A DNA stretch of 34,463 bases from a virus, in IMG/VR virus record IMGVR_UViG_3300020419_000047, positions 1-34,463 of that record; one strand, given 5' to 3'. The position numbers and the translations under genes are program-made. Of the stretch, positions 3,024 to 27,959 are shown piece by piece; position 1 is the stretch's first letter; every line of letters begins with the position of its first letter. The notes below the pieces were generated by a model. It saw nothing but the letters and a program-made list of their open reading frames with translations, was not told the DNA's origin and searched no databases.

Positions 3024-3147
3024 GGGTATATCATTTACATTTAGAGCATCTCCTAAAGTAAAAAGAAAGGGAATACACGCTAAGACAAAAAGCAGAACAA
3101 AAGGCGGTAAACAATATAAAAAGAAATACAATGGGCAAGGAAGATAA
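3016..3147 (+). CDS. Very basic 43-aa protein
   Basis: ATG at 3016 overlaps the stop region of the preceding gene and the frame runs to TAA at 3145-3147. The product begins MAKGISFTFRASPKVKRKG and ends KKKYNGQGR; about a third of residues are Lys or Arg, with almost no acidic residues. The strong composition, the coupled overlap on both sides and resemblance to small MAKG..FTFRA proteins that I recall from flavobacterial phages support it as real. Function unknown; nucleic-acid or envelope binding is possible given the charge. Confidence 0.65.
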   Translation: MAKGISFTFRASPKVKRKGIHAKTKSRTKGGKQYKKKYNGQGR

Positions 3148-3337
3148 AGAATACTGTAAATGTTTTAAATGGGAATCTTGTAAATGCTGTGAAACTGCTG
3201 AAACTGCTGAAACTGCTGAAACTGCTGAAACTGCTGAACATACAGGTTTTGATGCTTGGGTAGAAGATATGGAAGAACAAGAACAACCTACCTGCGACAT
3301 AGAGAATCAAGAAGATTGCGAGAATTGTGGTAGCTGA
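3131..3337 (+). CDS. Cys-rich acidic protein with a Glu-Thr-Ala repeat
   Basis: The 68-residue protein has an N-terminal Cys cluster (CKCFKWESCKCC, residues 9-20), then five exact Glu-Thr-Ala repeats encoded by a tandem 9-bp repeat GAAACTGCT with one diverged sixth unit, then an acidic tail with three more Cys (CDIENQEDCENCGS). It overlaps the basic protein upstream by 17 bases and ends on the first base of the lysin ATG. The cysteine pattern could bind a metal, but no known domain is recognised. The repeat length could vary by slippage. Confidence 0.6.
   Translation: MGKEDKEYCKCFKWESCKCCETAETAETAETAETAEHTGFDAWVEDMEEQEQPTCDIENQEDCENCGS
3183..3239 (+). repeat. Tandem 9-bp repeat GAAACTGCT
   Basis: Five consecutive identical copies of GAAACTGCT occur inside the Cys-rich gene and encode Glu-Thr-Ala. 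The same core reappears at the lysin start (3338) and four times in the intergenic region 11955-12029. Confidence 0.9.
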
Positions 3338-3819
3338 TGAAACTGCTGTGCTTACGATATAACCTTGCCTTAGATAGTACTAACGGTATGTTATTCTATG
3401 AGGGCTTTGCAGGATATGACTTTCTTTGCTATACACTAGAAGATGAGTATAGGAGAGATAAGGTCAAAGGCGAAACAATGATACCTTATGGAGTGTACGA
3501 AATAAAGTATAGAAAAGAGGGTGGCTTTCATAACAGATATTCTGAGAGGTTTGGAGATTTACATCGTGGTATGTTGCATATCACTAATGTTCCTAACTTT
3601 GAGCATATTCTCATACATTGCGGTAATACTGATGAACATACTAGTGGGTGTTTACTCGTTGGCGATTCGCAAGAAAACAACAACTTAGTTTCTGATGGAT
3701 TTATAGGTAAATCTACACAGGCATACAAAAGACTTTACAAAATGGTTGCTGATGAACTTGATTTAGGTCATAGAGTAATTATTGAATATAAACACATTAA
3801 TGATTTAATGGAAGTTTAA
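3337..3819 (+). CDS. DUF5675-family protein, probable lysin
   Basis: The 160-residue protein has the DUF5675 pattern: an N-terminal beta region (residues 1-35), IPYGVYEIKYR at 49-59, GMLHITNVPNFEHILIHCGN at 78-97, and HTSGCLLVG at 101-109, with conserved His94 and Cys105. The His...Gly-Cys layout resembles L,D-transpeptidase-like folds, and the family is commonly found in phage lysis modules. No signal peptide is visible, so export would need a holin, and a 3TM holin follows at once. Peptidoglycan cleavage is inferred, not shown. Start overlaps the previous stop by one base. Confidence 0.7.
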   Translation: MKLLCLRYNLALDSTNGMLFYEGFAGYDFLCYTLEDEYRRDKVKGETMIPYGVYEIKYRKEGGFHNRYSERFGDLHRGMLHITNVPNFEHILIHCGNTDEHTSGCLLVGDSQENNNLVSDGFIGKSTQAYKRLYKMVADELDLGHRVIIEYKHINDLMEV

Positions 3820-3900
3820 CCCTTGCCAAAGGGTTCACAAAGGGTAGTTTATACCCTATATAATAAAGCTAAAGCTATAAATAAAGATAAAGATAAAGAT
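3818..3900 (+). repeat. Hairpin plus AAAGAT/AAAGCT module, copy A
   Basis: Immediately after the lysin stop, AACCCTT (3818-3824) pairs with AAGGGTT (3829-3835). A second hairpin AGGGTA-GTTTA-TACCCT spans 3841-3857, followed by ATAATAAAGCT and hexamer repeats of AAAGCT and AAAGAT to 3900, directly before the holin ATG. Related modules are at 8032-8096 and 14065-14130. Read in the holin frame the module would encode KGSQRVVYTLYNKAK..KDKDKD, like the repeat inside the replication gene. Confidence 0.8.
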
Positions 3901-4290
3901 ATGAGTATATTGAGAAAAATATTTAGTAGTGGAGCAAAGGACTTAGTAGATAGTGTTGGAAATGCTATTGATAAGATACATACCTCAGCAGAAGAAAAAG
4001 AACTTGTAAAGAACGAGATAAACAAAGCTATCTATGAGTTTGAAAAGAATATGCAGGTAGAGGTAACTAAGCGTTGGGAAGCTGATATGAATGGTAATTG
4101 GCTGTCTAAATCCATACGACCATTGTCACTAGCTTTCCTGTTGTTTGTGCTTACCATATTTACACTAATTGACTTTGGATATGTAGATATGGACATCAAA
4201 GATTCTTGGATTGACCTATGGCAACTATTAGCCATCACTGCCTTTGGTGCATACTTTGGAGGAAGGTCTTACGAAAAAATTAGGAAATAA
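3901..4290 (+). CDS. Holin, 3TM superfamily
   Basis: The frame is open from TTG 3823, but the first 26 residues of that extension are the repeat module, so ATG 3901 (MSILRKIFSSG) is the likely start, giving 129 residues. The N-terminal half is an amphipathic, charged helix region, followed by NWLSKSIRPLSLAFLLFVLT and a second hydrophobic segment at LWQLLAITAFGAYFGGRSYE. This matches the phage holin family of 3TMs. It would permeabilise the inner membrane to release the DUF5675 lysin. It is the last gene before the terminator region at 4368-4400. Confidence 0.8.
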   Translation: MSILRKIFSSGAKDLVDSVGNAIDKIHTSAEEKELVKNEINKAIYEFEKNMQVEVTKRWEADMNGNWLSKSIRPLSLAFLLFVLTIFTLIDFGYVDMDIKDSWIDLWQLLAITAFGAYFGGRSYEKIRK

Positions 4291-6377: not shown

Positions 6378-6614
6378 ATGACAAAGATAGCGAATAATGA
6401 ATTTCACAAATTAGTGAGAGTAACAGGAATGACTAAGCGTAGGTTTAGCGAAGTAACAGGCTTGAAGGGAACAAGTATAGATAAGTATCTGCAAGACCCT
6501 ACAATGCTGAGGCTCAAGCACTTACAACTACTAGCTGATGCTGAAGAGTTTAAGAGTCAAGAACTTGGAGATGTTGAACTATTAAATATGATAAATCAAG
6601 ATGACAAGTTATAG
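6378..6614 (+). CDS. Small HTH protein, Cro/repressor-like
   Basis: The 78-residue protein contains a helix-turn-helix at about residues 18-36: MTKRRFSEVTGLKGTSIDKY, with the turn at TGLKG. The size and layout match phage Cro-like regulators. It overlaps the next gene by 14 bases. Being embedded in the replication operon, it could tune early transcription. No operator is proven, though the AAGGGT hairpin modules are candidates. Confidence 0.6.
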   Translation: MTKIANNEFHKLVRVTGMTKRRFSEVTGLKGTSIDKYLQDPTMLRLKHLQLLADAEEFKSQELGDVELLNMINQDDKL

Positions 6615-7029
6615 AGAAGAGATTTTAAAGAAAGCTGTTTGCAAATATTATAATGTAACAGAAAAAGAATTGCACTCCAACACTAGGAGAGCAGAAGTTG
6701 TTGGAGCTAGAAGAATGTTCTACTATATGGCTAGAAAACATTTCGACCAAACTTACAAGTCAATAGGCAGGAAGTTTAATCAAGACCACGCAACAGTAAT
6801 ATTTCACGAAAAGAAATTAGCAGACTTTTTAACTTTTGATAAAAACGAAATAAGAAGGTATATTAAAGTTAGAGATATGGTCTTTGATGAAGTAACATTT
6901 ATCAATATAAAAGACGAGATGGACACTTTATTAAGAGATAAACTTCTTATAGATGATAGATTATCAGAAATTAAAAATGAGTTAACAGCAATTAGTAATC
7001 AAAACAATTTTAACTATTATGGAAATTAA
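6601..7029 (+). CDS. DnaA domain IV-like DNA-binding protein
   Basis: The 142-residue protein has a near-complete DnaA C-terminal (domain IV) signature. Basic residues lie at 29-38 (RRAEVVGARR), then MFYYMARKHFDQTYKSIGRK at 39-58, and the DnaA-box-reading DHATV at 62-66. The AAA+ and domain I parts are missing. Residues 75-142 form a charged, probably coiled tail. Stand-alone domain IV proteins occur in Bacteroidetes phages. It could bind DnaA boxes at the phage origin (candidate at 12068-12092) or compete with host DnaA. It overlaps the next start by 11 bases. Confidence 0.8.
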   Translation: MTSYREEILKKAVCKYYNVTEKELHSNTRRAEVVGARRMFYYMARKHFDQTYKSIGRKFNQDHATVIFHEKKLADFLTFDKNEIRRYIKVRDMVFDEVTFINIKDEMDTLLRDKLLIDDRLSEIKNELTAISNQNNFNYYGN

Positions 7030-7330
7030 AGGAACTTTAGAAGCTAAGTTTGATACAAAGGTATTTTCTAGCGGATTTAAAAAGAAAGAGTTTGTAGTAA
7101 ATACAGGCGGTGATTATCCTCAGTCTATTAAGATGGAGGCAGTAAAAGACAACATAGAAAAGATGGATAGTATTCCTGTTGGGTCTGAACTCACCTGTAA
7201 GATAGACATCAGGGGTCGTCTGTATGAAGGCAACTACTACAACAACATATTAGCTTGGTCAATCAATGTCGGTGGTGCAAAGACAGAGAAACCTGCTGAA
7301 ACTGTAAATGAGTCAGACTTACCCTTTTAA
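7019..7330 (+). CDS. DUF3127-like OB-fold protein, probable ssDNA-binding protein
   Basis: The 103-residue protein looks like a small OB-fold domain: LEAKFDTKVF, FKKKEFVVNTGGDYPQSIKM and VGSELTCKIDIRGRLYEGNY, as in the Bacteroidetes DUF3127 family. It ends in a flexible linker and an acidic tip, ESDLPF, closely resembling the bacterial SSB tip (DDDIPF) that recruits replication and repair partners. The position between DnaA-IV and the initiator gene fits an SSB role. ssDNA binding is inferred from fold and tip, not demonstrated. Confidence 0.7.
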   Translation: MEIKGTLEAKFDTKVFSSGFKKKEFVVNTGGDYPQSIKMEAVKDNIEKMDSIPVGSELTCKIDIRGRLYEGNYYNNILAWSINVGGAKTEKPAETVNESDLPF

Positions 7331-7703: not shown

Positions 7704-8372
7704 ATGGCAAAAAGAATGACAGACACAGACAAATGGAAGAAAAGATTTGTTAGAGAATTATCACCACAACACAAGCTACTTTGGTTTTACATATTAGATG
7801 ACTGCAATCACGCAGGTATATGGGAGGTGGATTTAGAAGTAGCTTCAATCCGTGTAGGCTTTGACCTATCACATAACCACCTCCCATCATCATTTGGCGA
7901 AAAAGTAATATCTTTTGACAATGGCGATAAATGGTTTATTCCTGAATTTATTGACTTTCAATATGGCGAATTGAATCCAAATAGCAATGTGCATAAATCA
8001 GTAATTGCACTTCTTGATAAATATAATCTTGAAGGGTATCTGAAGGGTTCACAAGGGGTACAAAGTACCCTTAATAATAAAGATAAGGATAAAGATATAG
8101 TTAAAGTTAAAGCTAAGGTTAATAGGTTTGTAAAGCCAACAATCGAAGAAGTAGCTGACTATTGCAATGAAAGAAACAATGATGTAGATGCTGAGAAGTT
8201 TTACGACTACTATTCTTCTAACGGTTGGAAAGTAGGTAAGAATGCAATGAAGGATTGGAAGGCATCTGTTAGAACTTGGGAAAAGAATACTACTCAAGAG
8301 CAGAAGGCATCACAACCAAAACAAGTATTAACATCTTGGCAACAGGCAAGACAACAGATTAACAATGGATAA
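7704..8372 (+). CDS. Replication initiator-like protein
   Basis: The 222-residue protein has an N-terminal winged-helix-like region (residues 1-95: DTDKWKKRFVRELSPQHKLL, GIWEVDLEVASIRVGF) typical of Bacteroidetes phage and plasmid replication proteins. A Lys-Asp linker follows (residues 114-139). The C-terminal helical domain (about 145-195: IEEVADYCNERNND, FYDYYSSNGWKVGKNAMKDW, VRTWEK) resembles DnaD/helicase-loader-type modules. It probably binds the origin and helps load the host helicase. The linker is encoded by a hairpin-repeat module (8032-8096), which recalls lambda O, whose origin iterons lie inside the gene. Start ATG 7704 is in ACATTATGGC context. Confidence 0.7.
   Translation: MAKRMTDTDKWKKRFVRELSPQHKLLWFYILDDCNHAGIWEVDLEVASIRVGFDLSHNHLPSSFGEKVISFDNGDKWFIPEFIDFQYGELNPNSNVHKSVIALLDKYNLEGYLKGSQGVQSTLNNKDKDKDIVKVKAKVNRFVKPTIEEVADYCNERNNDVDAEKFYDYYSSNGWKVGKNAMKDWKASVRTWEKNTTQEQKASQPKQVLTSWQQARQQINNG
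8032..8096 (+). repeat. Hairpin plus AAAGAT module, copy B (inside the initiator gene)
   Basis: AAGGGT occurs at 8032 and 8043, then GGGGTAC-AAA-GTACCCT (8055-8071) forms a hairpin, then ATAATAAAGATAAGGATAAAG. It encodes the KGSQGVQSTLNNKDKDKD linker. It matches copies at 3829-3900 and 14065-14130 in order and spacing. Confidence 0.8.
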
Positions 8373-12425: not shown

Positions 12426-13526
12426 ATGAGATATTCAGTAAATCAATTACTCAAAATAGCTATTAAAGATATTGAATCTTTAGGATATAAAAAAAAGCAA
12501 TACAGCGAAAATACGCCCATTAAGTTAGGATTTAGTCAATCGGATTTTACAAAGGTTAGCTATATAACCGAAAAAAGACAAAATGACTTAATTTTTAATC
12601 ATGTTATTGACACAAAAGTATTTACAAAAGAAAATAGAAAAAAGTATTTCTATCATACTACTATTGAAAAATTGATAAATAAATATTTCAAGGATGTTGT
12701 TTCGGATTGTTACAAAAGCCAAGAGATTATCCAGCAATTAAAAAAGCATTTATTTGATTTAAAAAAATTGGATTTGAAAATTTACGAGGGTAGCGAGATA
12801 GCCACTATTTATTCAAGTGATGCCAACGCTATTAGTTCTATGAGTTGTATGCAAGGCAAACCTCAAAGCTATTTCGAAATTTTTTCAGATTTACCCGTTA
12901 AGATGTACGCTATTATTGAGGGCGGGATTTTATATGCTCGTTGTCTAGTTTGGGAAGTTAATCGATCTTATTGGGCTAAGTCAAAAATATACATTGATAG
13001 AATATACACTTATGCCCATAATGAACCGCTGTCGAATCATATATATAAAAGAATGATTCAACAAATTATGCGAATGAATAAGATTGATAAGAGCGAAAAA
13101 ATACACGCCTATAATTTTAGACATATTAACTCGGACGATTTGAAAGGTTTTTCTTATTGCCCATTTAACGAAGTGCATTTCAAGTCTATGAGTTTAGATG
13201 ATTTTAATCATTTTCCATATATGGACACCTTCCAATATGGTAATGATTATGACGATTTACTTTCTATTGATCAGGAAGATTCTTCTTCTCATTTATTAGA
13301 CTCTACGTCGGGCGGATACTCTGAAGTTGATTCATTCTCTTGTGAGTGTTGCGGGGCTGAAATGACAGAAGATGAGCAAATCTACTGCGAAGATGTAACG
13401 GAAACACGCTGTGAAGATTGCGTAAGATATTCAGAGGTGGACGGAAGTTATTATGCCGAAGAAAATTGTACTTATATCGGTGGTAATGTTAATAGCTATG
13501 TGCATAACCGAGATATTAACAATTAA
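12426..13526 (+). CDS. Phage accessory protein with C-terminal zinc-ribbon-like cluster
   Basis: The 366-residue protein has motifs I associate with a phage family of unknown function: SCMQGK (140-145) followed by SYFEIFSDLPVKMYAIIEGG, a CLVW phrase (173-176) and IYIDRIYT (188-195). The C-terminus holds Cys306, 308, 309, 321, 329, 332 (CECCG...YCED...CEDC), a zinc-ribbon-like layout resembling the tail of the peptidase at 9012. No known enzymatic motif is clear. Codon use differs from neighbours, with more CG-containing codons, suggesting a transferred cargo gene. Confidence 0.7.
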   Translation: MRYSVNQLLKIAIKDIESLGYKKKQYSENTPIKLGFSQSDFTKVSYITEKRQNDLIFNHVIDTKVFTKENRKKYFYHTTIEKLINKYFKDVVSDCYKSQEIIQQLKKHLFDLKKLDLKIYEGSEIATIYSSDANAISSMSCMQGKPQSYFEIFSDLPVKMYAIIEGGILYARCLVWEVNRSYWAKSKIYIDRIYTYAHNEPLSNHIYKRMIQQIMRMNKIDKSEKIHAYNFRHINSDDLKGFSYCPFNEVHFKSMSLDDFNHFPYMDTFQYGNDYDDLLSIDQEDSSSHLLDSTSGGYSEVDSFSCECCGAEMTEDEQIYCEDVTETRCEDCVRYSEVDGSYYAEENCTYIGGNVNSYVHNRDINN

Positions 13527-13550
13527 TTTATTAACCTAATTTTAAACATT

Positions 13551-13731
13551 ATGAACTTAACACAGAAACAGAAAGACGTTTTATATCTATTAAGCGTACC
13601 CGTTTTGATGTTGTTGATATTCCTTAGTGAATATCTGACAAGATTTTAACAATAGCGACAAAGCAAAAGTGACGTTATTACCTTTGATTTTTGCGCTTAT
13701 CATTATGATTTTAGAATGGCTGTTTGGCTAA
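13551..13731 (+). pseudogene. Two-TM small membrane protein split by a +1 frame change
   Basis: ATG 13551 (ACATTATG context) encodes MNLTQKQKDVLYLLSVPVLM and a membrane helix, ending at TAA 13647-13649. The +1 frame from 13648 continues NNSDKAKVTLLPLIFALIIM with a second membrane helix to TAA 13729. Joined at TTT-T-AAC the product would be a 59-residue helical hairpin with a charged turn (SEYLTRF-NNSDKAK). The junction TTT TAA C resembles the +1 shift site of prfB (CTT TGA C). It is therefore either a one-base insertion (broken gene), a programmed shift, or two peptides, the second starting at GTG 13669. Confidence 0.5.
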
Positions 13732-14064
13732 AAAATTCTTTTTAATAAGCAAGAAAACAAATATTTAACGCACTTTTTAACAATTTTGGCGGGATTTTTT
13801 TACGAATTCCGTCAATTTTTTTGGTCAGGTTGTGTAGCCACATATACGCAACCACAACAAAATGAAATCCAATTTTATAAGTTAGTAAATAGTATGGTAT
13901 GTTGAGAAATATATTCCTTTTAGGGGGTTCGTTTATTCAACGTTGCAAGGAAAGTACGCAAGTTAGTTAAAAAGAAACTTAATCTTTCGCAAAAGTTAGG
14001 GGAAAAGTAAAAATAGACCCCCATACAATACAAAAAAAATTTTAAAGACCTATTTTATAGATTT
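13732..14064. other. Non-coding region before the terminase; candidate packaging (pac/cos) region
   Basis: No convincing ORF lies here on either strand. Visible structure: an imperfect inverted repeat GGTTGTGT...ACGCAACC with a 10-base loop (13837-13863 area); a palindrome CAACGTTG near 13940; similar phrases CGCAAGTTAG and CGCAAAAGTTAG at about 13958-14000; and GGGGGT (13923-13928) matching ACCCCC (14017-14022) across about 90 bases. Packaging sites often lie next to the small terminase gene, so a pac/cos role is plausible. A structured RNA is the alternative. Confidence 0.35.
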
Positions 14065-14130
14065 AAGGGTACGTGAAGGGTATACTATACCCTACATAAT
14101 AAAGCTAAAGATAAAGCTAAGGTTAAAGCT
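14065..14130 (+). repeat. Hairpin plus AAAGCT/AAAGAT module, copy C
   Basis: AAGGGT at 14065 and 14076, then AGGGTATA-C-TATACCCT (14077-14093), then ACATAAT and five hexamers AAAGCT, AAAGAT, AAAGCT, AAGGTT, AAAGCT (14101-14130). It sits just before the terminase promoter. Read in frame it gives KGT-stop-RVYYTLHNKAKDKAKVKA, a decayed match to copies A and B. Confidence 0.8.
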
Positions 14131-14131
14131 A

Positions 14132-14163
14132 TTTGTTTAGTTTTAGTTTTTTGCTTATGTTTG
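14132..14163 (+). promoter_or_regulatory. Promoter of the terminase operon
   Basis: TTTG (14132-14135), 20 bases, TATGTTTG (14156-14163). The ATG is only 4 bases further, so the mRNA would be leaderless or nearly so. Confidence 0.8.
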
Positions 14164-14167
14164 CATT

Positions 14168-14548
14168 ATGAGTGAAGAAAAAAAGAAAGTTGTAGGCAAA
14201 CCATTTGCTGTTGGCAATACTCTTGGGGGTAGAACTAAAGGTGCTTTGAATAAGACCACTAAGTTCTCAAGAGAGGTTCTTACTTTGGCTCTAGCAGGAC
14301 AGGAAGAAAATATTAGACAAGCACTAGAAAAATTATCTAAAAAAAATCCTGAAGCATATATCAATGCTGTTGCTAAACTTCTAAACTACGCAATACCAAA
14401 ACTTCAATCTACTGAAATAAGTTCAAACGGAAATGCTAAGATAGAGATAACTCTTGATGATAGTATGAGTGTTGATGACCTTAAAAGGCGAATGGCTGAA
14501 ATGGAAGCCGAAGATGCAGATTTTGAAGATATAGATGGACAAGATTAA
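14168..14548 (+). CDS. terS: Terminase small subunit (probable)
   Basis: The 126-residue protein begins with a basic phrase KPFAVGNTLGGRTKGALNKT like the KPGNPGRPKGxxNK of DUF5681-type proteins. A helical oligomerisation region (about 35-75: LTLALAGQEENIRQALEKL, AYINAVAKLLNYAIPK) and a highly acidic tail (DLKRRMAEMEAEDADFEDID) follow. It overlaps the large terminase gene by 14 bases. The small subunit recognises the packaging site and regulates the motor. Assignment rests on position and layout more than on sequence similarity. Confidence 0.7.
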   Translation: MSEEKKKVVGKPFAVGNTLGGRTKGALNKTTKFSREVLTLALAGQEENIRQALEKLSKKNPEAYINAVAKLLNYAIPKLQSTEISSNGNAKIEITLDDSMSVDDLKRRMAEMEAEDADFEDIDGQD

Positions 14549-15962
14549 AAAGGAACAACTGCTAAAGGCGATGGAGAAAGCCATCTGTGAGAAATCATTT
14601 TATGAGTTCTTTGTCAAAGCCTTTCCTATAGCAGAACCTTCAGTTCCTTTATCCACAAACTTCCACCACAAATACCTTTGCGATATTCTGCAAGGAGAAG
14701 CAGAAAGAATAATTAGAGGCGAAAGAAAGGGTAAAGATATAATTATTAATATTCCCTTCCGTAGCACTAAGTCATTACTTGTGACAGTTATGTTTCCTGC
14801 TTGGTGTTGGGCGGTATATCCCAAAATGAGATTTATCACAGCATCATACTCGGCTGAGATTAGTATAGAACACGCAACAAAGTCAAGAGATATAATAAAT
14901 AGCGAATGGTATCAAGAGCATTGGGGAGAAACATATCAAATCAAAAAAGATCAAAACCTAAAAGCTAGATACGAGAATACACATCTAGGAGTTAGGAGAG
15001 CAACATCTGTTGGCGGTTCGGTAACAGGGCAAGGTGGTGATATAATTCTTGTCGATGACCCTACATCACCAAAAAATGCTGCATCGGAAACAGAAAGAGA
15101 TAATGCTAACGAATGGTATAAGTCAACATTGTATTCACGACTTAATAATCCAACAACGGGAGTTAGGATAATTATTATGCAAAGAGTACACGAAGATGAC
15201 CTTAGCGGTTACCTTCTATACAACTCACCCGACAAACATCATCATATCTGCATACCCGCAGAGCTTTCTAGCGACCTAAAGCCATATTCACTACACGAAC
15301 ACTATCAAGAAGGTCTATTTTGGAAAGAAAGATTCTCAAGAGAGGTCTTAGAGGACTATAAGTCAGCTTTGGGTAGTTATGGCTACGCAGGACAGCTACA
15401 ACAGCGACCAACACCTGCCGATAGTGGTATGTTACAGAAAAATTGGTTTAGAATAGATGATGAGAAGGTAGATGATGTAGTAAACTTCGTTATTGACCCT
15501 GCATATACCGCAAGTCAGAAAAATGACCCGTCAGCATTGATGGCATACACATATAGCGAGGGTAAATGGCAAATTAGAGAGGTTCAGAACGTAAGATTGG
15601 AGTTTCCTGACCTTGTAAAGCATATTGTTAAGTTTGTAAACAAAAATGGCTACACAAAACAATCAAAAATATTTGTAGAGCCTAAAGCTAGTGGTAAATC
15701 TATTGTTCAAACCTTAACTAGAGAAACAGGACTTAACATAAAAGAAGATAAGCCACCAACAAAAGATAAGGTGGCAAGAGTACAAGATATTAGTGCAAGT
15801 ATAGAAACGGGAAGGGTATCACTACTAAAAGGTCATTGGAATGAAGAATTTCTTATGCAATGCCAAACATTTCCTGCTGCAAAGCACGATGATATGGTAG
15901 ATTGCCTTGTAATGGCACTAAATAGACACTTTAACGGCAAAAAAATAGTATTTTTCGGCTAA
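14535..15962 (+). CDS. terL: Terminase large subunit
   Basis: The 475-residue protein has the packaging-motor plan. Residues 60-200 are the ATPase, with a deviant Walker A region (INIPFRSTKS, 71-80) and Walker B DIILVDDP (169-176). VRIIIMQRVHEDDLSGYLL (210-228) follows. The C-terminal RNase H-like nuclease has Asp321 (FVIDPAYT), FVEPKASGKS (380-389) and Asp452/453 (KHDDMVDCL). It pumps DNA into the capsid and cuts concatemers. The Walker A lacks the usual GKT but has a Lys in STKS, as in several terminases. No frameshift or truncation is apparent. Confidence 0.93.
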   Translation: MDKIKKEQLLKAMEKAICEKSFYEFFVKAFPIAEPSVPLSTNFHHKYLCDILQGEAERIIRGERKGKDIIINIPFRSTKSLLVTVMFPAWCWAVYPKMRFITASYSAEISIEHATKSRDIINSEWYQEHWGETYQIKKDQNLKARYENTHLGVRRATSVGGSVTGQGGDIILVDDPTSPKNAASETERDNANEWYKSTLYSRLNNPTTGVRIIIMQRVHEDDLSGYLLYNSPDKHHHICIPAELSSDLKPYSLHEHYQEGLFWKERFSREVLEDYKSALGSYGYAGQLQQRPTPADSGMLQKNWFRIDDEKVDDVVNFVIDPAYTASQKNDPSALMAYTYSEGKWQIREVQNVRLEFPDLVKHIVKFVNKNGYTKQSKIFVEPKASGKSIVQTLTRETGLNIKEDKPPTKDKVARVQDISASIETGRVSLLKGHWNEEFLMQCQTFPAAKHDDMVDCLVMALNRHFNGKKIVFFG

Positions 15963-16020
15963 ATAGCCTATAAAATTGAAATTTGCACAAAAACTGCGAC
16001 AGATAACATATATAAAGACT

Positions 16021-16028
16021 TAGTTTTG
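16021..16028 (+). promoter_or_regulatory. Possible promoter -7 box, TAGTTTTG
   Basis: Exact TAnnTTTG match ending 5 bases before ATG 16034, as at the other late promoters. No -33 TTTG is seen at the right distance. Confidence 0.4.
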
Positions 16029-16033
16029 TAAAA

Positions 16034-16426
16034 ATGAATGAATTTAAGCATATAAATCAAAAACACGAGGACTTAGTAACTAACTACCTTAAATATATAC
16101 AAAAACAGGTGTATGTTGCTACTGAAGATGCTGATTTTGGAAAATATGATGATTTTCAGGATATTCTCGAGGATATTATGATGTATCATAATGATTTTGT
16201 AGGCGTAGGCTTAAATAGGGATAATATTGAGGAGTGGATGTTTGCTATTCCTAATCTAACAATGTTTACCGTTTTAGGATTCTTTGCAGGATTAAGAAAC
16301 GAAGAAAACGATGATGTGGTGGAAATTTGCGTAAGAAACGTATATAGTGCTACAATGGACATCGTGGGAAGTTTATCTGACCTAATGAAAGACGAAGAAG
16401 AAATAAAACAGATGCAACAATGTTAG
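16034..16426 (+). CDS. Hypothetical acidic protein upstream of the tail chaperones
   Basis: The 130-residue acidic protein is largely helical (HEDLVTNYLKYIQKQVYVAT, FQDILEDIMMYHNDFVGVGL, MDIVGSLSDLMKDEEEI). No domain recognised. It overlaps the chaperone start by 7 bases. The position after terL would normally hold the portal, but nothing here resembles one. Possibly a tail-assembly or regulatory factor. Confidence 0.65.
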   Translation: MNEFKHINQKHEDLVTNYLKYIQKQVYVATEDADFGKYDDFQDILEDIMMYHNDFVGVGLNRDNIEEWMFAIPNLTMFTVLGFFAGLRNEENDDVVEICVRNVYSATMDIVGSLSDLMKDEEEIKQMQQC

Positions 16427-17064
16427 TAGTAGAAATAGAGGACAAAGAATACAGTATTCCTGATAGTTGGGAGGAAATGACTTTGGATTATTATTGTGGA
16501 TTACACCATATAATATCAAAGTATCAGAAAACCCAAGAGGAAGAAGAGAGTGAAAACGATTTAACAAAATATTTCTTTCATCAAGAAAGTAAGATGCATA
16601 AAGAACTTTTTTGTTATATGACGGGATTGAGCGAAAAAAAGGTTAATAATATATCTATGCAGAGCATAAACTCTGTTTTAAACTGCTTAGAGTCTATTAT
16701 GAAGGATTACGAACCAAAAGGTGTTGATTCTTTTAAGTTTGAGGGAGATATTTATTATTTTCCAATAGACTTTCTTAGAACAGGTACTTTTGGAGATTAT
16801 ATAGAAAGTCAACAGCTTGAAATGAACACGCAATACCTGAAAAATGGTAGGTTTGATGTTTTGCCTGAACAGATGGCAATATTATGCAAACAAGTTGATG
16901 AAGAGGTTGACCTTGACAATATTGATGAAAAGACGAATAATTTTCGCAGGTTAACAATGGACATCGTATGGGAGTTCAGTTTTTTTTTGAACAAACAAAC
17001 GATGGCATCGTTAGGCGCTATAAAAATCTTTTCAGAGATGGCGGCACAAAAAGTATCGCAGTAG
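16420..17064 (+). CDS. Tail assembly chaperone, short form (gpG-like)
   Basis: The 214-residue acidic protein opens with VEIEDKEYSIPDSWEEMTLD, a strand-strand-helix phrase typical of tail assembly chaperones in Bacteroidetes phages, followed by helices. Near residues 185-190 the codons TTC AGT TTT TTT TTG form a slippery run, and the -1 frame there is the next gene. This is the classic gpG/gpGT arrangement: the short and shifted forms coat the tape measure protein and recruit tail tube subunits. The function is inferred from this arrangement. In most siphoviruses the tape measure gene follows directly; here it is 7.5 kb further on. Confidence 0.65.
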   Translation: MLVVEIEDKEYSIPDSWEEMTLDYYCGLHHIISKYQKTQEEEESENDLTKYFFHQESKMHKELFCYMTGLSEKKVNNISMQSINSVLNCLESIMKDYEPKGVDSFKFEGDIYYFPIDFLRTGTFGDYIESQQLEMNTQYLKNGRFDVLPEQMAILCKQVDEEVDLDNIDEKTNNFRRLTMDIVWEFSFFLNKQTMASLGAIKIFSEMAAQKVSQ

Positions 17065-17276
17065 CGAAGGCAAGTAAGATAATGAAGCCGTTTGGTTGGC
17101 TGAACACCTTATACGACCTAGCGCTTGATGGAGTATTTACAAGAGATGGTAAAGATGCTATGCAAAGTGTAAAAGATGAAAAATTGTATAAGGTTTTGAC
17201 ATACCTGTCTTGGAAAACTGCAAAAGGAGATTATGAACTTGCTATTAATGAAGAACAGCAAAAACAAATTAAATAA
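16968..17276 (+). CDS. Frameshift extension of the tail assembly chaperone (gpT-like part)
   Basis: The frame has an ATG at 16968, but it overlaps the upstream gene by 97 bases and lies exactly in the -1 frame, so it is probably made as a fusion: 189 residues of the short form plus 96 residues beginning FEQTNDGIV, about 285 in all. The extension is basic and helical (DGGTKSIAVAKASKIMKPFG, VKDEKLYKVLTYLSWKTAKG), fitting a gpT-like tail-tube-binding domain. Separate translation from ATG 16968 cannot be excluded. Confidence 0.65.
   Translation: MGVQFFFEQTNDGIVRRYKNLFRDGGTKSIAVAKASKIMKPFGWLNTLYDLALDGVFTRDGKDAMQSVKDEKLYKVLTYLSWKTAKGDYELAINEEQQKQIK
16980..16986 (+). promoter_or_regulatory. Slippery site T TTT TTT for -1 frameshift
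   Basis: Nine T (16980-16988) with the heptamer T TTT TTT in register with the zero frame. Slippage at TTT (16984-16986) moves reading to 16986 in the frame of the gene ending at 17276. Confidence 0.7.
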
Positions 17277-18451
17277 TGGGTTTTAATAAACTTAGAGAAT
17301 TAAGAGATAGGTTTGAACAAAAATGGATAAATGGTGGCTTCATATTTGGTTACGAGAATGAAATCAATGAGAATCACAACAATGACTATCCATTACTCGT
17401 TGTCTTACCACCAACATCTGAACTTCCTGCTACGGAAGGAGATGTGCAAGAGGAATACACTTTCGAGTGCCTAGTCGTTAAGCCATACTACCAAAACCAA
17501 GCAGGTTCGCTTGATGTAGTATTCAGCTTGTTGGAACAAGAAGCATTGACTTGGATACAAAGAGTGTTAGATAGCTATACAAACAAAGAAGTAATTTTAA
17601 GTCCTGACAGTATATCTGTTGAACGAGAAAAAGAGTTGTATAACGACAAGTTGATACAGGTCAGGCTTACTTTTACTTTAAACGCTTTCTCTCACGACTT
17701 TACAAGGCTTGATGAAGCATTTGTTAACTCACTAACACCTTTGCTTTGGTTAAAAGCTGATATGGGCGTTAAAACGGAGTTCTTTGGAGGCAATGAAGTC
17801 GTAAACAAGTGGATTGACCAAAGTGGTAATGGAAATCACTTTGAGCAAACAACATCGGCTAAGAAGCCTTTGTATAAGTACGAGATGTCATCCAACAACT
17901 ATCCTTATGTATTCTTTGATGGAACAAATGACTTCTTGGATTGCGTTAACGACTCACTTGATGGAACTGCTGATGGTTTGAATAATGGATTATCTGTATT
18001 CTATGTAGCTAAGGGATATGATGGCTATAATGGGTATATGATAAGTAAGAATTTAGATAATGTAGCAAAAGCAAACTTTGCTATTAGAATATCCACAGCA
18101 GGAGGTAACCTTAATTGGAGAAACCAAATACAAGATACTGATGATGATTTATTAGATTACATATACACATCAAACGGAGCAAAACAAGTTGCTGCTAATG
18201 GATTTACAAAACACAACACCAATCACAGCGTAAAGTCTTTTGAGAATGGCTCTTTGGTTGATGTTGAAACAAATCCTGACTTTGATGCAGAGGCATTTCA
18301 AGATTTATATCCACTAAGACTGGGTGCGGCTAGAGATGCAGTTGGACACCTAAAAGTTGACATACAAGAGGTTCTTATATTTGAAAAAGAACTTAGTGTC
18401 GAAGAAGTTACAAAATTATCAGATTACTTAAAACATAAATACAACATATAA
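17276..18451 (+). CDS. Tail protein with N-terminal structural domain and C-terminal LamG-like domain
   Basis: The 391-residue protein has two parts. Residues 1-150 (MGFNKLRELRDRFEQKW, LIQVRLTFTLNAFSHDF) look like a tail-completion or minor tail domain. Residues 155-391 form a LamG/concanavalin-like sandwich: TPLLWLKADMG, WIDQSGNGNHF, YVFFDGTNDFLDC, and EVLIFEKELSVEEVTKLSDY, with the Asp-Gln-Ser-Gly-Asn-Gly-Asn phrase usual in such folds. Fusion of a structural domain to a glycan-binding one suggests an adhesion role on the virion. Overlaps both neighbours by one base. Confidence 0.65.
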   Translation: MGFNKLRELRDRFEQKWINGGFIFGYENEINENHNNDYPLLVVLPPTSELPATEGDVQEEYTFECLVVKPYYQNQAGSLDVVFSLLEQEALTWIQRVLDSYTNKEVILSPDSISVEREKELYNDKLIQVRLTFTLNAFSHDFTRLDEAFVNSLTPLLWLKADMGVKTEFFGGNEVVNKWIDQSGNGNHFEQTTSAKKPLYKYEMSSNNYPYVFFDGTNDFLDCVNDSLDGTADGLNNGLSVFYVAKGYDGYNGYMISKNLDNVAKANFAIRISTAGGNLNWRNQIQDTDDDLLDYIYTSNGAKQVAANGFTKHNTNHSVKSFENGSLVDVETNPDFDAEAFQDLYPLRLGAARDAVGHLKVDIQEVLIFEKELSVEEVTKLSDYLKHKYNI

Positions 18452-20655
18452 TGGCATTACAATACATTGACCAACCGTCAGATACTTTTCATAGTGTATA
18501 TAGTCCAATAAAGCTATCAGCTTTTGAGGTAACGCAAAATAGAGATAAATATGTTAGTTGTAAGGTTACGATAACTCCTATAGATAATATAAATGGAGCA
18601 ACTCTTACAGACCAAACTGTAACAATAAGAGTTCAGCCAAGCATAGATATACCAAATCATAACTCATCAGGAAACACTCCTAACAATAGTAGATTATATT
18701 ATACAATAGATGTATCGTCTATTTGTCGTGACTTCTTGTCTTATAATCTAAGACCTTGTACTCACGATACAAGTAATTGGGTAAGGAGAGATATAACTTT
18801 AGCTGAAATATCAAACGATGTATATAAAGAAATAAATGTTGTATTTCAACTAGAGGAAATTAACACTAGTGGGGAATTAGTTAATAGCGGAAGCTCTATT
18901 TCAACAAACTTCTTTGTGACAAATTCAGCATTGCTCCACGAACAAGAGCATTATGGTTATATAAATAGTATATTAAAAGGAGATACATCTGCACATCCCT
19001 ACTACGCTTTTAATTTGTCAACCCAATACATTCACTCAGGGATAACTGCCAATCTAAATAATAGACAAAAATATCTTACTACAAAGCCTGTAAAACACAG
19101 AGTAATAGGAACTGATGAATGTGAATATTTATCTTTCTTACACGAAGATGACCAAACTAATGACGTTAGGGTTTTAGCTAGGTTTTACGATAAAAACGGA
19201 AGCGAAATATTAAATGGAACAGGAAGTGCTTATGTTTTAGTTATAAACAAAACTGTAGATGGTAACGGGAATACAGGAAGTAATCTTAATTCTTGGGCAG
19301 ATAGCGGTAGCACAGCAGAAACACACTCTGTTTGTCAAGTAGGGATAGGAACAAGAAATATAAAAGAAAGTCCTGATAGTAGATTTAACGGAAGTTGTGC
19401 TGTTACTGATTTTTCAAATATAAGTTATTACGAAGTTTATACTGAATATGACGGTAGTGATAAGATAGGTGAAACTGTTAGATATTATATCGACCACACT
19501 AGACAAAGAGTTAATGGTGTTAGATTCCATTGGCAAAACAGATTAGGTGGTATTGACAGCTACACTTTTGATGGTGCTTTTACAGAGAGTATAAACATAT
19601 CATCTAAAACCTATGAGCAAAGTATATACCCTGACTTTAGAGGTCAATTAGGTAGCTCGACATCAAATACAAGAATAGCACAAGGAGATAATCCATTGTA
19701 TGCAGAGGATTACGGAGCTTTAGTACCTAGAGTTGCAGGTCTTACTGATGACAAATATCCATCTGTTAGAAAGTCAAAGGTAAAAGCTGTTAAGGAAGGA
19801 GCTGCAATATCAAGACCTTACGGAATTGCAGAACAAGATATGTTTGAGGATTTATTGGCTTCACCAAATGTATGGATAGAGAAAGGTTGGATAGGCAAAG
19901 AAGTGTTTAGAGAGGATTGGAGTGGCTATGCTGCTGTAACAAGCATAAGCGATAAATATCATATACAAGATGGTAATATAACAAGTGATGCTGCTTTTGA
20001 AACTGCTGATGGTCATTTAACGGGAACAAGAACTCTAAGAAAAGGGAATGAAGGAACTACTAGTAGCAGTGGTTCAGATAACGATACTCTTTGGTTGGTT
20101 AGTGATTCAAGAATACCGTACAACCCTAAAAGTATATATGAAGTTGAAGTTAGAATAAAAAGTAATGCTAGTGATTCAGGTTATCAGGTTGTAGGTTTTA
20201 CAGGATTTGCATCCAACAAAACAACCAAAATATCTACGGGTGGCTCTGACCAATATGGCAACTTCCATAAAATAACACTAGAAGATTATGCTCAACAAAC
20301 TGATGACCAATGGGAAACTTTTAGAGGTTATGTTACAGGTCACTCTACAACCGTAGCATCAGAATCACATAATATAAACACAGCATCAGCAGCCTATGAT
20401 GGTGTGAAATACATATCTCCAACAATACTTATAAATCACGATGATGTAGCGGGAGAAACTTACATAGACTACATTGTGGTAAGAGAGTATAGAACAGATA
20501 TTCCTAATTCTGACGGTTGGTATTCTACACTCAACAGAAACTACTATGTTCCTGTTGTTGTAAAAGATGCTAGTGTTACTACATTTGACAATGAGAACTT
20601 ACAGAGATGTACTTTAAATTATATAGAAAGCAAAGCTAAAAGAACAATAGAATAA
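18451..20655 (+). CDS. Large tail/baseplate-type protein
   Basis: The 734-residue protein has no enzymatic motif. It is beta-rich, Ser/Thr/Asn/Asp-rich, with RVNGVRFHWQNRLGGIDSYT near residue 355, a phrase seen in flavobacterial phage structural proteins. The C-terminal third (residues about 480-690, from FREDWSGYAAV to TYIDYIVVREY) looks like a carbohydrate-binding jelly-roll. Its position between the chaperone block and a distal-tail-type protein supports a tail tip or adhesion function. Coupled by one-base overlaps on both sides. Confidence 0.6.
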   Translation: MALQYIDQPSDTFHSVYSPIKLSAFEVTQNRDKYVSCKVTITPIDNINGATLTDQTVTIRVQPSIDIPNHNSSGNTPNNSRLYYTIDVSSICRDFLSYNLRPCTHDTSNWVRRDITLAEISNDVYKEINVVFQLEEINTSGELVNSGSSISTNFFVTNSALLHEQEHYGYINSILKGDTSAHPYYAFNLSTQYIHSGITANLNNRQKYLTTKPVKHRVIGTDECEYLSFLHEDDQTNDVRVLARFYDKNGSEILNGTGSAYVLVINKTVDGNGNTGSNLNSWADSGSTAETHSVCQVGIGTRNIKESPDSRFNGSCAVTDFSNISYYEVYTEYDGSDKIGETVRYYIDHTRQRVNGVRFHWQNRLGGIDSYTFDGAFTESINISSKTYEQSIYPDFRGQLGSSTSNTRIAQGDNPLYAEDYGALVPRVAGLTDDKYPSVRKSKVKAVKEGAAISRPYGIAEQDMFEDLLASPNVWIEKGWIGKEVFREDWSGYAAVTSISDKYHIQDGNITSDAAFETADGHLTGTRTLRKGNEGTTSSSGSDNDTLWLVSDSRIPYNPKSIYEVEVRIKSNASDSGYQVVGFTGFASNKTTKISTGGSDQYGNFHKITLEDYAQQTDDQWETFRGYVTGHSTTVASESHNINTASAAYDGVKYISPTILINHDDVAGETYIDYIVVREYRTDIPNSDGWYSTLNRNYYVPVVVKDASVTTFDNENLQRCTLNYIESKAKRTIE

Positions 20656-23360
20656 TGGCAGAAATAAGAGTTGAGCTAAGAGATTTTACTGACAGCATAT
20701 TAGGAAACCTTGATATAACATCGAGTGATGACTTTCCTTTGTCACTTAATTATCAAAACTTTGACATTAGGGATTTTAATTCTCGTAACGGTAGTTTTAG
20801 TAAGACTTTCAAAGTTCCTGCTACAAGAAGCAACAATAAAATTTTAAATCATATATACAAGGATGGTAATATAGATAGCAAAAATGTATTAAAAGATTTG
20901 CCATCTACAATATATGCAGACCACTTACCTATAATGAATGGCAAACTAAGGGTAACTCAAATATACAAAAACAAAGAAGTTTTGGAGTATGAGTGCCTTT
21001 TCTTAGCTGACAATATGGATTGGGCAGACAAGATAAAGTCTAAAGAGTTAAAAGACTTAGTTTTTAGTTCAACATCATATTCAAGCTATCCTATAACAGA
21101 AGCTGTTTCAACAGGATATATATTTGAAAATCCACACGGATTTGACGGAAACAGTCCTAATCAAAACCCACATAGCTATGCTCAGTACGTAAAAAATAAC
21201 GACAAAATAGTTTATCCATTGCTTTCTATGGGAGAAGGTGATAGCATAAAGAATCAGGTTGTAGAGTCGGACTTTGTCCCCTGTCTTTATGTTAAGAACA
21301 TTTGGGATAAGATATTCCAAGCTCAAGGATATAATGTTGAATCAACATTTTGCGATAGCGACTTTTTTAAGTCATTAATTATGCCATTGATATTTGAAAA
21401 GAAAGGAGATGTAGTTAATGAGAAGTATGGCAAGATATACAGAAACTCTGATGAAAATCTAACATCTGAAGTTTCAGGCGGAAGTTTTAGTGCTACAGAT
21501 GGAACTGTTACTCTTAATAGAGCTGTTGGAAATCCTAGTGTAGATATAGGTACTGATGCTGTTTCATATGACCACGATGGAGATGGTTCTAAGAATCAAG
21601 GAAGTGACGAGGGGGGAGTGTTTTATGTTTTTGGAGGAGATGCCTTTATAGACGAATCAGATGACAATCCTAATGTTTCTGATGGCGATTCAGGATTAAA
21701 AAGTTTGCTTGTAAAAAACGCTGAGGGAGAACAAAATTTAGACTTTGATATATCAACAAGCGTTTTTAATAATAGTTCTTTTGGAGCAACTTCAGACCCT
21801 AATATGGACATATATGTAAGTGCTTATGTTGCTAAAATATCAGATACAGACGATGACGATTTGTCCGAACTTATAGATACTGACAATATAGTATATAGTA
21901 GTATAGACGTTGAAGGTGCTTCTAGGTATATAACTATACACAAAAATGATAGTCCTGCAACTGTTGATATGGGTAGCTTTAGCTCTTCCTTATCTGTCAA
22001 CGACCCTGTTGGAACAAAATATGTTTTCTTTATAAGGTTTTACTTGCAAGACTACGCAGGAAAACCAACCCCTCAAATTCTTGGCGGTGGTGATGATAAA
22101 GGTGATGTTGGGATAAGATATAACAAGGGAAGCTATATAGAAATATCTGACGGTGATGAAATAGAGATAAACACTCAAATGCCAAGCATATCTTCAATGC
22201 TTCCAAATGCCAAGCAGTCTGACTTTGTAAGTGGATTAGCTCAAATGTTTAATCTTCAGTTTGAAACTGACAATATAGCTAAAACAGTAAAGGTAGAGCC
22301 TTATGACCATTTTTATGGTTCTTTCTCAAATGCTGTTGATTGGACTGACAAAATTGATTACTCCAAAGAAATAAAAGATGAGTTTTTGTATGAGCTTAAA
22401 TCAAAGATAGAGCTAAAATATAAAGATGCTAGTGATGATGCTTTCTTAGACAGATATAATAAGAAAAATCCTGTTGATTGGGGAACTTATCAAGAAACGG
22501 ATGATTCGGGTAAGTTTTTAGAAGGTGAGTATGTTATAGAAAACAAATACTTTTCTCCAACATTTAACTATCACGAAATAAAATACGTTGATGAAACAAC
22601 ATTTACTTTGGCTACGGGTGTTGCTGAAACGGAAGAAAACTACAATCAAGCATCACAAATATTTGCTCCATTAATACCAATTTATCATCAAGAGTTTTCA
22701 GACCTTTCTACAAAAGAGGATAGGGGTGAAAAAAACTTTGACATAGGAGCTAGAATATTGTTACTGCCACCTGCTAATGGAGCTGCTATATCTTATAGTA
22801 GTGATAAAACAATTATGTTTAGTAGTCAATATGGATTAGCAACAGCTTATAGCTATGCTCCTCTACCGAACAATGATATGGATGCTGAAAGTAATACAAA
22901 CCCTAGATTCACTAGAGCCAACTTTATAAACATAGATAATATAAGATGGGATGGTAGTAACCTTGTTTTTGCAAAATTAAATAATGGTTATGAAGATGTT
23001 GATTTAAACCTTTCTTTCTCTGATGTAAAGTATGATGTTCCAACTGTTGTTGATGCAACAGGCTTAAACAAGATGAGAGGTCTTTACTATAACTATTATA
23101 GCAAGATGATAAAGCAATTAAAACAAAATCCAAGAATTAAAAAACTATATATAAATTTAAGTTCTCAGGATGTTAATTCTTTGGATTTCAAAAAACTTGT
23201 ATTTATTGATGGTAATTATTACAGGATAAACAAAGTTGTTGATTACAAACCACACTTAAAATCATCTACTAAGGTGGAGCTTACAGAGTACTTTAAGTTG
23301 GGTAGTGACAATGAAACTTTGGGCGATGAAATGGATTTGATAAATGATATAAATCTATAA
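20655..23360 (+). CDS. Large tail tip/hub protein
   Basis: The 901-residue protein begins with a phrase typical of a tail protein conserved in Bacteroidetes phages: FDIRDFNSRNGSFSKTFKVP then ATRSNNKILNHIY (residues 37-69). Later parts include MFNLQFETDNIAKTVKVEPY near residue 537 and KLVFIDGNYYRINKVVDYKP near residue 855, which resemble hub/baseplate domains. Asp/Ser/Gly-rich insertions lie between residues 275 and 345. It likely forms the distal tail or its hub. No lytic motif seen. The largest tail gene except the tape measure. Confidence 0.6.
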   Translation: MAEIRVELRDFTDSILGNLDITSSDDFPLSLNYQNFDIRDFNSRNGSFSKTFKVPATRSNNKILNHIYKDGNIDSKNVLKDLPSTIYADHLPIMNGKLRVTQIYKNKEVLEYECLFLADNMDWADKIKSKELKDLVFSSTSYSSYPITEAVSTGYIFENPHGFDGNSPNQNPHSYAQYVKNNDKIVYPLLSMGEGDSIKNQVVESDFVPCLYVKNIWDKIFQAQGYNVESTFCDSDFFKSLIMPLIFEKKGDVVNEKYGKIYRNSDENLTSEVSGGSFSATDGTVTLNRAVGNPSVDIGTDAVSYDHDGDGSKNQGSDEGGVFYVFGGDAFIDESDDNPNVSDGDSGLKSLLVKNAEGEQNLDFDISTSVFNNSSFGATSDPNMDIYVSAYVAKISDTDDDDLSELIDTDNIVYSSIDVEGASRYITIHKNDSPATVDMGSFSSSLSVNDPVGTKYVFFIRFYLQDYAGKPTPQILGGGDDKGDVGIRYNKGSYIEISDGDEIEINTQMPSISSMLPNAKQSDFVSGLAQMFNLQFETDNIAKTVKVEPYDHFYGSFSNAVDWTDKIDYSKEIKDEFLYELKSKIELKYKDASDDAFLDRYNKKNPVDWGTYQETDDSGKFLEGEYVIENKYFSPTFNYHEIKYVDETTFTLATGVAETEENYNQASQIFAPLIPIYHQEFSDLSTKEDRGEKNFDIGARILLLPPANGAAISYSSDKTIMFSSQYGLATAYSYAPLPNNDMDAESNTNPRFTRANFINIDNIRWDGSNLVFAKLNNGYEDVDLNLSFSDVKYDVPTVVDATGLNKMRGLYYNYYSKMIKQLKQNPRIKKLYINLSSQDVNSLDFKKLVFIDGNYYRINKVVDYKPHLKSSTKVELTEYFKLGSDNETLGDEMDLINDINL

Positions 23361-24283: not shown

Positions 24284-24284
24284 T

Positions 24285-24812
24285 ATGGCAGAGATTAGTT
24301 TAAAGCAGATGAGAAATATTCTTCGAGAAATTGGAGATGATTTAGTAGACGGCATAAGAGGTGAGTTAAGCAGACAAGGACACAACAACACGGGAACTCT
24401 TTCTGATAGCATTAGGTATGAGATAGAAGAGTTTGGAGGCAACATGTCTTTGCTTGTTATAGCAGACGATGTTGATTACGCTCAATATGTAAATGAAGGG
24501 TTTTTCCCTAACTCACTACCAAATATAGATGCTATAATGGAGTGGATAGACGAAAGAAACATAGCTCCTACAAGCGATAGGATAAAAAACTCTAAAGACC
24601 CAAGAAGAGCATTAGCATTTGCAATAGCTAAAGCTATGATGAGCGAAGGCTCTCCTACAAGTGGTGCTTTTAAATGGTCAAGCAACACTAAGAGAAGGGG
24701 TTTTGTTAATAGACCTTTCGGTTCAAGAAAAAGAGGTATAGAAAGAAAAATAGTAAACGGTATGTCTGTTGAAATAGATATATCTATGGATTCAATAATT
24801 AAAAAAGCATAA
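24285..24812 (+). CDS. HK97 gp10-like tail component
   Basis: The 175-residue protein has the HK97 gp10 family layout: an N-terminal amphipathic helix (LREIGDDLVDGIRGELSRQG), then HNNTGTLSDSIRYEI, then DDVDYAQYVNEGFFPN with the AxYVExG-type core. A C-terminal helix/strand follows. The family joins head and tail or completes the tail. It lies directly before the tape measure gene, overlapping by one base. RRGFVNRPFGSRKRGIER gives a basic C-terminal patch. Confidence 0.7.
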   Translation: MAEISLKQMRNILREIGDDLVDGIRGELSRQGHNNTGTLSDSIRYEIEEFGGNMSLLVIADDVDYAQYVNEGFFPNSLPNIDAIMEWIDERNIAPTSDRIKNSKDPRRALAFAIAKAMMSEGSPTSGAFKWSSNTKRRGFVNRPFGSRKRGIERKIVNGMSVEIDISMDSIIKKA

Positions 24813-27580: not shown

Positions 27581-27588
27581 TATATTTG
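27557..27588 (+). promoter_or_regulatory. Promoter before the HTH gene
   Basis: ATTG (27557-27560), 20 bases, TATATTTG (27581-27588). It lies across the tape measure stop, and the ATG is 3 bases beyond. Confidence 0.7.
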
Positions 27589-27591
27589 CGT

Positions 27592-27955: not shown

Positions 27956-27959
27956 CAAA

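Follow-up and report, generated by a model that had tools for sequence, protein, structure and literature searches.

A conserved module of 11-bp-phased iterons and A-rich hexamers, found in a phage initiator gene and before the holin and terminase genes, is a probable binding site for the initiator

The window, by which we mean the whole stretch of 34,463 bases that was analysed (virus record G000), carries three copies of a repeat module. One copy, I, lies within the gene of a candidate replication initiator, whereas H and T lie upstream of a holin gene and of the terminase genes, respectively. The genes and module parts concerned are the following.

3818-3900, plus strand: H module, upstream of the holin gene
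3818-3857, plus strand: iteron part of H, with inverted AACCCT at 3818, AAGGGT at 3829, AAGGGT at 3840 and inverted TACCCT at 3852-3857
3841-3846 and 3852-3857: inverted repeat of H, AGGGTA and TACCCT
3860-3900, plus strand: tract of H, ATAAT followed by six AAAGHT-type hexamers (3865-3900)
3901-4290, plus strand: holin gene (phrog_3427, E = 1.5e-22, with a query that began two codons upstream, at 3895)
6378-6614, plus strand: small HTH protein, with weak HTH matches
6601-7029, plus strand: stand-alone DnaA domain IV (Bac_DnaA_C) protein (Pfam, E = 1.4e-19)
7704-8372, plus strand: candidate replication initiator or replisome organiser, consisting of an N-terminal domain, a linker and a C-terminal part
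8032-8120, plus strand: I module, within the initiator gene
8032-8071, plus strand: iteron part of I, with AAGGGT at 8032, AAGGGT at 8043, AGGGGT at 8054 and inverted ACCCT at 8067
8074-8120, plus strand: tract of I, AATAAT and, from 8079, the hexamers AAAGAT, AAGGAT, AAAGAT, ATAGTT, AAAGTT, AAAGCT and AAGGTT
14065-14130, plus strand: T module, upstream of the terminase genes
14065-14093, plus strand: iteron part of T, with AAGGGT at 14065, AAGGGT at 14076 and an inverted TACCCT ending at 14093
14096-14130, plus strand: tract of T, ATAAT followed by five hexamers (14101-14130)
14132-14163, plus strand: promoter TTTG-N20-TAnnTTTG, adjoining T
14168-14548, plus strand: candidate terminase small-subunit gene, named by its position (weak matches only, to families of unknown function)
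14535-15962, plus strand: terminase large-subunit gene (phrog_38, E = 1.7e-100)

The three modules were found where the original prediction had placed them; the holin ATG, as corrected here, is at 3901, immediately after the last hexamer of H. Their parts come in a common order: AAGGGT iterons at 11-bp phase, of which the last is inverted, then TAATAAAG, then an (AAAGHT)n tract. Iteron starts are 11 bp apart in all three and the last inverted unit stands at +13; this 11-bp spacing, of which the prediction had made no mention, is the clearest regularity of the modules. A repeat search of the window returned H, I and T as a single ungapped family of 73 nt; relative to the copy at 3829, identity is 77% for the one at 8043 and 73% for the one at 14065. 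With up to three mismatches allowed, a 40-nt pattern matched just these three sites in the window and nothing in 100 dinucleotide shuffles, and pairs of A[AG]GGGT at 11 bp were counted four times, where 200 first-order Markov resamplings gave 0.005 on average and 1 at most. The hexamer tracts have an A+T content of 70-80%, compared to 65% for the window. The G+C skew makes no clear turn at H, I or T. We also observed a tandem 9-nt repeat, AACTGCTGA, at 3184-3246 inside a small ORF (3131-3337).

Related phages were collected in two ways. Scanning viral contigs for the pattern yielded 100 stretches; with the initiator as query, 154 stretches were confirmed, from which 80 loci were retained. Whole contigs were compared in a set of 21 (656,856 bases), made up of the window and 20 contigs taken from 30 records; the clade records G003, G005, G015 and G017 and the more distant G024-G027, G029 and G030 are outside this set. 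In this set, the module stands directly upstream of the holin gene in 19/19 contigs having that gene, and phased iterons are found in the linker in 19/19 contigs having the initiator. T is present in 15 of the 19 contigs with a terminase small subunit, altered in one (G021) and absent from three (G020, G023 and G028); in G011 and G014 it has TATAGATAAAG where the others have TAATAAAG. Upstream of the terminase genes of G021 (around 5074 of the contig) we noticed a T-like site of H-type build (AACCCTTGCCAAAGGGT), as if copied from H. A looser pattern matched at least once in 18 of 22 whole records; the four without a match (G019-G022) have sites of a rearranged form, which explains this result. 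Same-strand pairs of A[AG]GGGT at 11 bp fall inside H, I or T sites in 63 of 63 cases in the 21 contigs and never elsewhere, with site anchors that were listed after the sites had been seen. At 22 bp, 16 pairs lie in sites and none elsewhere, and the other spacings up to 40 bp give 7 in sites and 14 elsewhere. The hexamers were surveyed in 121 module instances, 118 of them long enough (49 H, 41 I, 26 T and 2 unclassed); the count for H extends into the holin gene, so that 38 of its 403 units are ATGAGT. The repeat module is thus real and conserved, and a search of related phages, which had been proposed as a check, does recover it in its phased form.

The original prediction described a hairpin whose arms covary while pairing is kept. 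This is weakly borne out, since 54 distinct hairpin-type cores (42 classed H or T and 12 classed I, by a rough rule) offer little variation by which to judge pairing. Pairs 2 and 3 are invariant. Of the 42 H/T cores, 39 have A-T as outer pair; their inner pair (6) is A-T in 35 cores and mismatched (T-T) in 7. The outer pair of the 12 I cores is G-T (9), G-C (2) or A-T (1). In addition, in many relatives AAGGGTT..AAACCCT replaces RGGGTAN5TACCCT at I: AAGGGTnnnnnAAGGGTT is kept and followed by CACAAACCCTACC, the third unit is reversed and the hairpin is lost. The H sites of G022, G023 and G028 have the same rearranged form, AAGGGTTTnnAAACCCT. In this form the repeat remains inverted but has a shorter spacer, so that inverted units persist but the particular hairpin does not. 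We therefore ruled out the hairpin as the constant core of the module, as it is rearranged in part of the clade while the phased iterons stay. A strict coupling of H type to I type was also dropped, because several contigs combine a rearranged I with a hairpin H (L051/L153, L054/L139 and L052/L162).

These observations bear on whether the module acts as RNA, for instance as a nut-like antitermination site or as a hairpin that controls translation. The stem of 5 bp with a loop of 5 nt, the outer pair seen as A-T, G-T and G-C, and the location of the copies on the coding strand would suit such a role, and H folds better than its shuffles when taken in isolation (z = -3.46); however, I (z = -1.38) and T (z = -0.69) do not do so clearly. 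A nut-like site would have an RNA hairpin in every copy, whereas the hairpin is rearranged in many I sites and absent at the T of G021. T also lies upstream of the promoter that adjoins its gene, and the window has no Rfam match. Units are found in either orientation at the same 11-bp phase, which fits a reader of double-stranded DNA and not an RNA element. We consider an RNA function very improbable.

The protein encoded by 7704-8372 matches phrog_15768 (E = 1.7e-27) and, by its C-terminal part, the DnaD-like helicase loader phrog_8489 (E = 4.8e-4), and its relatives include a Porphyromonas phage protein annotated as replication initiation protein. In Pfam no match was better than E = 0.074 and no replication family was returned; NCBIfam gave chance-level rows only, and a search of the PDB by sequence with the initiator alignment gave a single row (E = 0.72). 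The AlphaFold model of the whole protein was poor (pLDDT 59) and was set aside, and the N-terminal domain was modelled alone (pLDDT 85.5); the model has a predicted winged-helix-like order of elements. Its similarity to winged-helix proteins is weak, with VIA Z scores of 4.0-5.5 (Cdc6 5.4, pPS10 RepA 4.3, Rep-DUE complex 4.0); Foldseek returned nothing at E ≤ 0.001 and VIA nothing at Z of 8 or more, and the structure matches listed for this domain included neither a DnaD nor a phage initiator, which carries no weight against such a relationship. One observation does not fit a simple picture: helix 57-67 of the model, the putative reading helix if the fold is a winged helix, belongs to the variable parts of the protein in the clade, where the AAGGGT word does not change.

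We asked how freely synonymous codons vary along the initiator gene, in 71 distinct ORFs (Pan5 left out), the expectation being taken from the gene's own codon use. Over I, the four 8-codon blocks of codons 105-136 have observed/expected ratios of 0.30, 0.12, 0.17 and 0.23, and the remaining blocks range from 0.44 to 0.94, except for codons 33-40 (0.30), which form a second stretch of low synonymous diversity. The constraint on I spans both iterons and hexamers. Indeed, the Asp codons 127, 129 and 131 use one codon only (diversity 0.0), and the Lys codons of that stretch vary more. I is therefore under constraint at the DNA level within coding DNA.

H and T had been read as decayed versions of the peptide that I encodes. 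This idea is unsupported, because T contains an in-frame TGA and, in G010, the frame before the holin gene contains TAA with no later start, although the DNA pattern of H is kept; the reading was ruled out on account of these stops. It could also be supposed that the modules mark boundaries of recombination or module exchange, or are remnants of chance duplication, with no protein that reads them. H and T do lie at borders of gene blocks, but the synonymous constraint, the exact phasing and the matching words described below need selection on the sequence, and we find this explanation scarcely credible. In distant relatives, families diverge in the C-terminal part of the initiator directly after the iteron/hexamer linker, which therefore resembles a joint at which domains are exchanged.

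The linker was also compared in 27 aligned proteins that have the same N-terminal domain and are 33-91% identical to that of the window. Distant linkers often have other words in this position, likewise spaced by 11 bp: AGCCCC (L177, L187), AGGGGC (L176, L236, L243), AGACCC (L244), AAGCTTCAT (L249), and AACCCT/AAGGGT in mixed orientation (L238). Thus the word differs between families but phase and place are constant. An exact 5-mer repeat at lag 11 occurs in 15 of 24 linkers of the clade and its distant relatives, a hand-chosen sample with several close relatives from which some near-duplicates were dropped and others kept; 500 codon shuffles gave a mean of 2.3 and a maximum of 9 of 24, and other segments of the same genes gave 7/72. 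Since 11 bp is not a codon period, such a repeat counts in favour of iterons. In the stretch tested, nine of the 24 linkers have no exact 5-mer repeat at this lag, and L235 has no visible array. Beyond the clade of the window and the second family described below, phased pairs of a genome's own word were found only in the initiator gene (the L172, L176, L178, L187 and L192 stretches and the complete genome of Pan5). In G025 (L176) there is a second iteron set near the N-terminus of the initiator gene, and in G026 and G030 a weak one (3 mismatches).

The initiator of L245, used as a query, defined a second family of 25 loci. Where the terminase large subunit is 78-100% identical to that of L245, a module stands directly upstream of it, with hexamers that end no more than a few bases before the terminase start codon; in L278 this T module is present and the linker falls outside the available sequence. 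In seven loci with terminases of 29-63% (L263, L264, L266, L267, L268, L271 and L275), the 130 bases upstream contain no module. The words of six genomes of this family are as follows (L237, L239, L240, L244 and L245 are identical with the contigs L260, L261, L256, L255 and L254, respectively, and were dropped as duplicates).

L254: AGGGGC/AGCCCC in the linker and in the pre-terminase site
L255: AGACCC in the linker and in the pre-terminase site
L256: AGGCTC, AGGCTC and AGCCCC in I; AGCCCC in T
L259: AGGGTC as first unit of I, the other two being different; AGGGTC/AGACCC in T
L260: AGGCTC and AGCCCC in the linker and in the pre-terminase site
L261: AGGGGC in I; the complement form AGCCCC in T

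The match was scored by counting the 6-mers that hand-cut segments had in common and that contained three or more G or C. For the six genomes and the window, the observed sum was reached by 4 of 5040 permutations, and for the six alone by 4 of 720; as the six genomes are related and the segments were cut by hand, this figure is not an independent-sample probability. L256 and L261 have the same T words, and in L256 and L259 T matches just one of the three linker units. Taken together, the pre-terminase word of the second family appears to follow the linker word of its own genome. The position of this copy differs by lineage, before the small subunit in one and before the large subunit in the other.

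Which protein would read the modules? The initiator is the natural candidate, because every family has the unit within this gene and the words before the terminase match those of its linker; the distant loci were gathered with the initiator as query, and this in itself accounts in part for its presence next to phased linkers. Two other proteins of the window could be proposed as readers of the AGGGT units. The small HTH protein was found in 19 of 20 other contigs in a search within the clade, but nothing was found that ties it to the sites. The gene of the DnaA domain IV protein lies just before an SSB-like gene (7019-7330) and the initiator gene. DnaA_C scores above the family cut-off in 15 of 20 clade records; of the five others (G020-G023 and G028), four have 16-19 bits and G021 has none. 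These five are the records with a rearranged H and a lost or altered T (the terminase region of G022 is outside its contig), which would agree with a role of DnaA_C, but a subclade with a weak DnaA_C represents one event. In distant records, DnaA_C is above the cut-off in G025, G026, G027 and G029, but it has no match in the complete genome of Pan5 or in G024, G031, G033 and G034, although all of them have phased linkers; the last four may be fragments. Phased linkers without a DnaA_C match make this protein unlikely as a general reader. An exact DnaA box, TTATGCACA, stands on the minus strand at 7988-7996, 36 bp upstream of I, and is one of four exact boxes in the window. However, boxes (TTATNCACA, up to one mismatch) show no enrichment over the window (45 versus 56.75 expected), none overlaps a module, and the codons at the box near I have no lowered synonymous diversity. 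That either protein is the reader of the units therefore seems to us improbable; the DnaA domain IV protein could be a partner.

The position of H and T directly before the holin and terminase genes suggests another role, in which the modules are operators by which the initiator or another phage protein times the expression of these genes and, at I, regulates its own. The promoter at 14132-14163 has the TTTG/TAnnTTTG consensus, which we take to be of Bacteroidota type. The hexamers of T adjoin its -33 box, stopping one base before it, and its -7 box TAnnTTTG ends 4 nt upstream of the ATG at 14168; this short distance (14156-14168) means that the message may be leaderless. By eye, TAnnTTTG lies just upstream of the terminase small-subunit gene in 15 of 19 contigs. 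Hexamers also reach the start codon in H, and nearly so in the second family. On the other side, no TTTG/TAnnTTTG promoter was found near H, I is inside a gene, an operator needs no long A-rich tract, and three contigs with the same terminase genes lack T. We regard operators as an unlikely explanation of the modules. Elsewhere in the window, four promoter pairs of Bacteroidota type were noted on the plus strand (5250, 8950, 11638 and 12144), with a common leader like GTATTAATCAAACAAAA downstream of three promoters (at 5279, 8978 and 11670). The window also has a long non-coding stretch before the terminase (13526-14065), in which blocks common to many relatives (CAACGTTGCAAG.., GACCCCCATA.. 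and CTATTTTATAG) are recognized; it is a candidate for packaging or transcription signals.

The phages of this group likely have a Bacteroidota host, given that initiator relatives occur in MAGs named Bacteroidia and Saprospiraceae, that the best terminase match by protein is Croceibacter phage P2559Y (44%) and that the promoters are of Bacteroidota type. A megablast of positions 14000-28000 of the window against phage records gave no match. Pan5 was deposited as a phage of the cyanobacterium Pseudanabaena.

The original prediction knew of no named element like this module. However, reports on Bacillus phage SPP1 describe direct repeats and an AT-rich tract inside the initiator gene (oriL) and a similar second site elsewhere (oriR), both bound by the initiator G38P (PMC6316719, PMC3485210), and SPP1 is therefore a precedent for an intragenic origin with a second origin elsewhere in the genome. 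The group studied here likewise has repeats and an AT-rich tract within the initiator gene and further sites of the same build in the genome; it differs by having up to three sites, AAGGGT units that are short and 11 bp apart, and extra sites that precede holin and terminase genes. In lambda and Stx phages, iterons and an AT-rich tract lie in the middle of gene O, where they encode part of the protein (PMC7466680). I resembles this arrangement, but a single origin is described there, the units here are shorter, 11-bp phased and partly inverted, and the initiator has no Pfam match better than the value given above. The iterons of plasmids RK2, F and R6K lie beside a DUE and are read by a winged-helix Rep, and the DnaA-trio of bacterial oriC consists of short repeated A-rich units beside double-strand binding sites (PMC10797057). 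The modules share with the former tandem direct repeats in helical phase beside an AT-rich tract, but belong to a phage genome, with a site within the initiator gene and dispersed copies, and the fold similarity is weak. They share with the latter short A-rich repeats beside putative double-strand binding sites, but the unit is the hexamer AAAGHT, not a trinucleotide, and the modules have no DnaA box. In a limited literature search, the matches listed did not describe such sites in Bacteroidota phages.

In our opinion, the best explanation is that the module combines a binding site for the initiator with a neighbouring tract that melts easily, and so forms an origin unit of the iteron type, with I as an intragenic origin and H and T as extra stations; judging from the sequence comparisons, we give it a probability of about 0.7. 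We are fairly confident that the modules are sites for the initiator, and I is probably an origin. The 11-bp-phased AGGGT units of I would be bound by initiator molecules from the same side of the helix, and the neighbouring A-rich hexamers would open, allowing the helicase to be loaded there, a course of events known from reports on lambda O and SPP1 G38P. H and T would bind the same initiator; from the matching words we infer that one initiator may be bound to all sites, as in SPP1. H and T would most likely serve as oriR does in SPP1, as a second origin or as a fork barrier aiding the switch to concatemer synthesis. We consider this possible, though short of an even chance; control of the adjacent genes and some other use, such as titration of the initiator, are each more doubtful. 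This agrees, by inference, with part of the original proposal, in that a dispersed element, common to an intragenic origin and other sites, would be recognized by a single DNA-binding protein, of which the initiator is the likeliest candidate; support comes from conservation in relatives, constraint in the initiator gene and the match of pre-terminase words to the linker in the second family. In lambda, extra origin copies on a plasmid in the host reportedly block replication initiation (PMC4488673), and natural extra sites should therefore be under control. A more speculative idea, which we think rather unlikely, is that the initiator doubles as a genome-wide timing protein which, bound upstream of the holin and terminase genes through the iterons that also make up its intragenic origin, couples replication to packaging and lysis, the words at all sites co-evolving.

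For this group of uncultured phages, the results suggest a rule for finding origins: look for 11-bp-phased units in the linker of the initiator and then for the same word elsewhere in the genome. The initiator's word seems to change in step at two sites, and this natural series could serve to map its specificity. Pre-terminase copies with different words in two lineages are a hint that binding of the initiator near the packaging genes is useful, and a link between replication and concatemers has been modelled for SPP1. The findings thus suggest that one initiator marks several places in the genome, as in SPP1.
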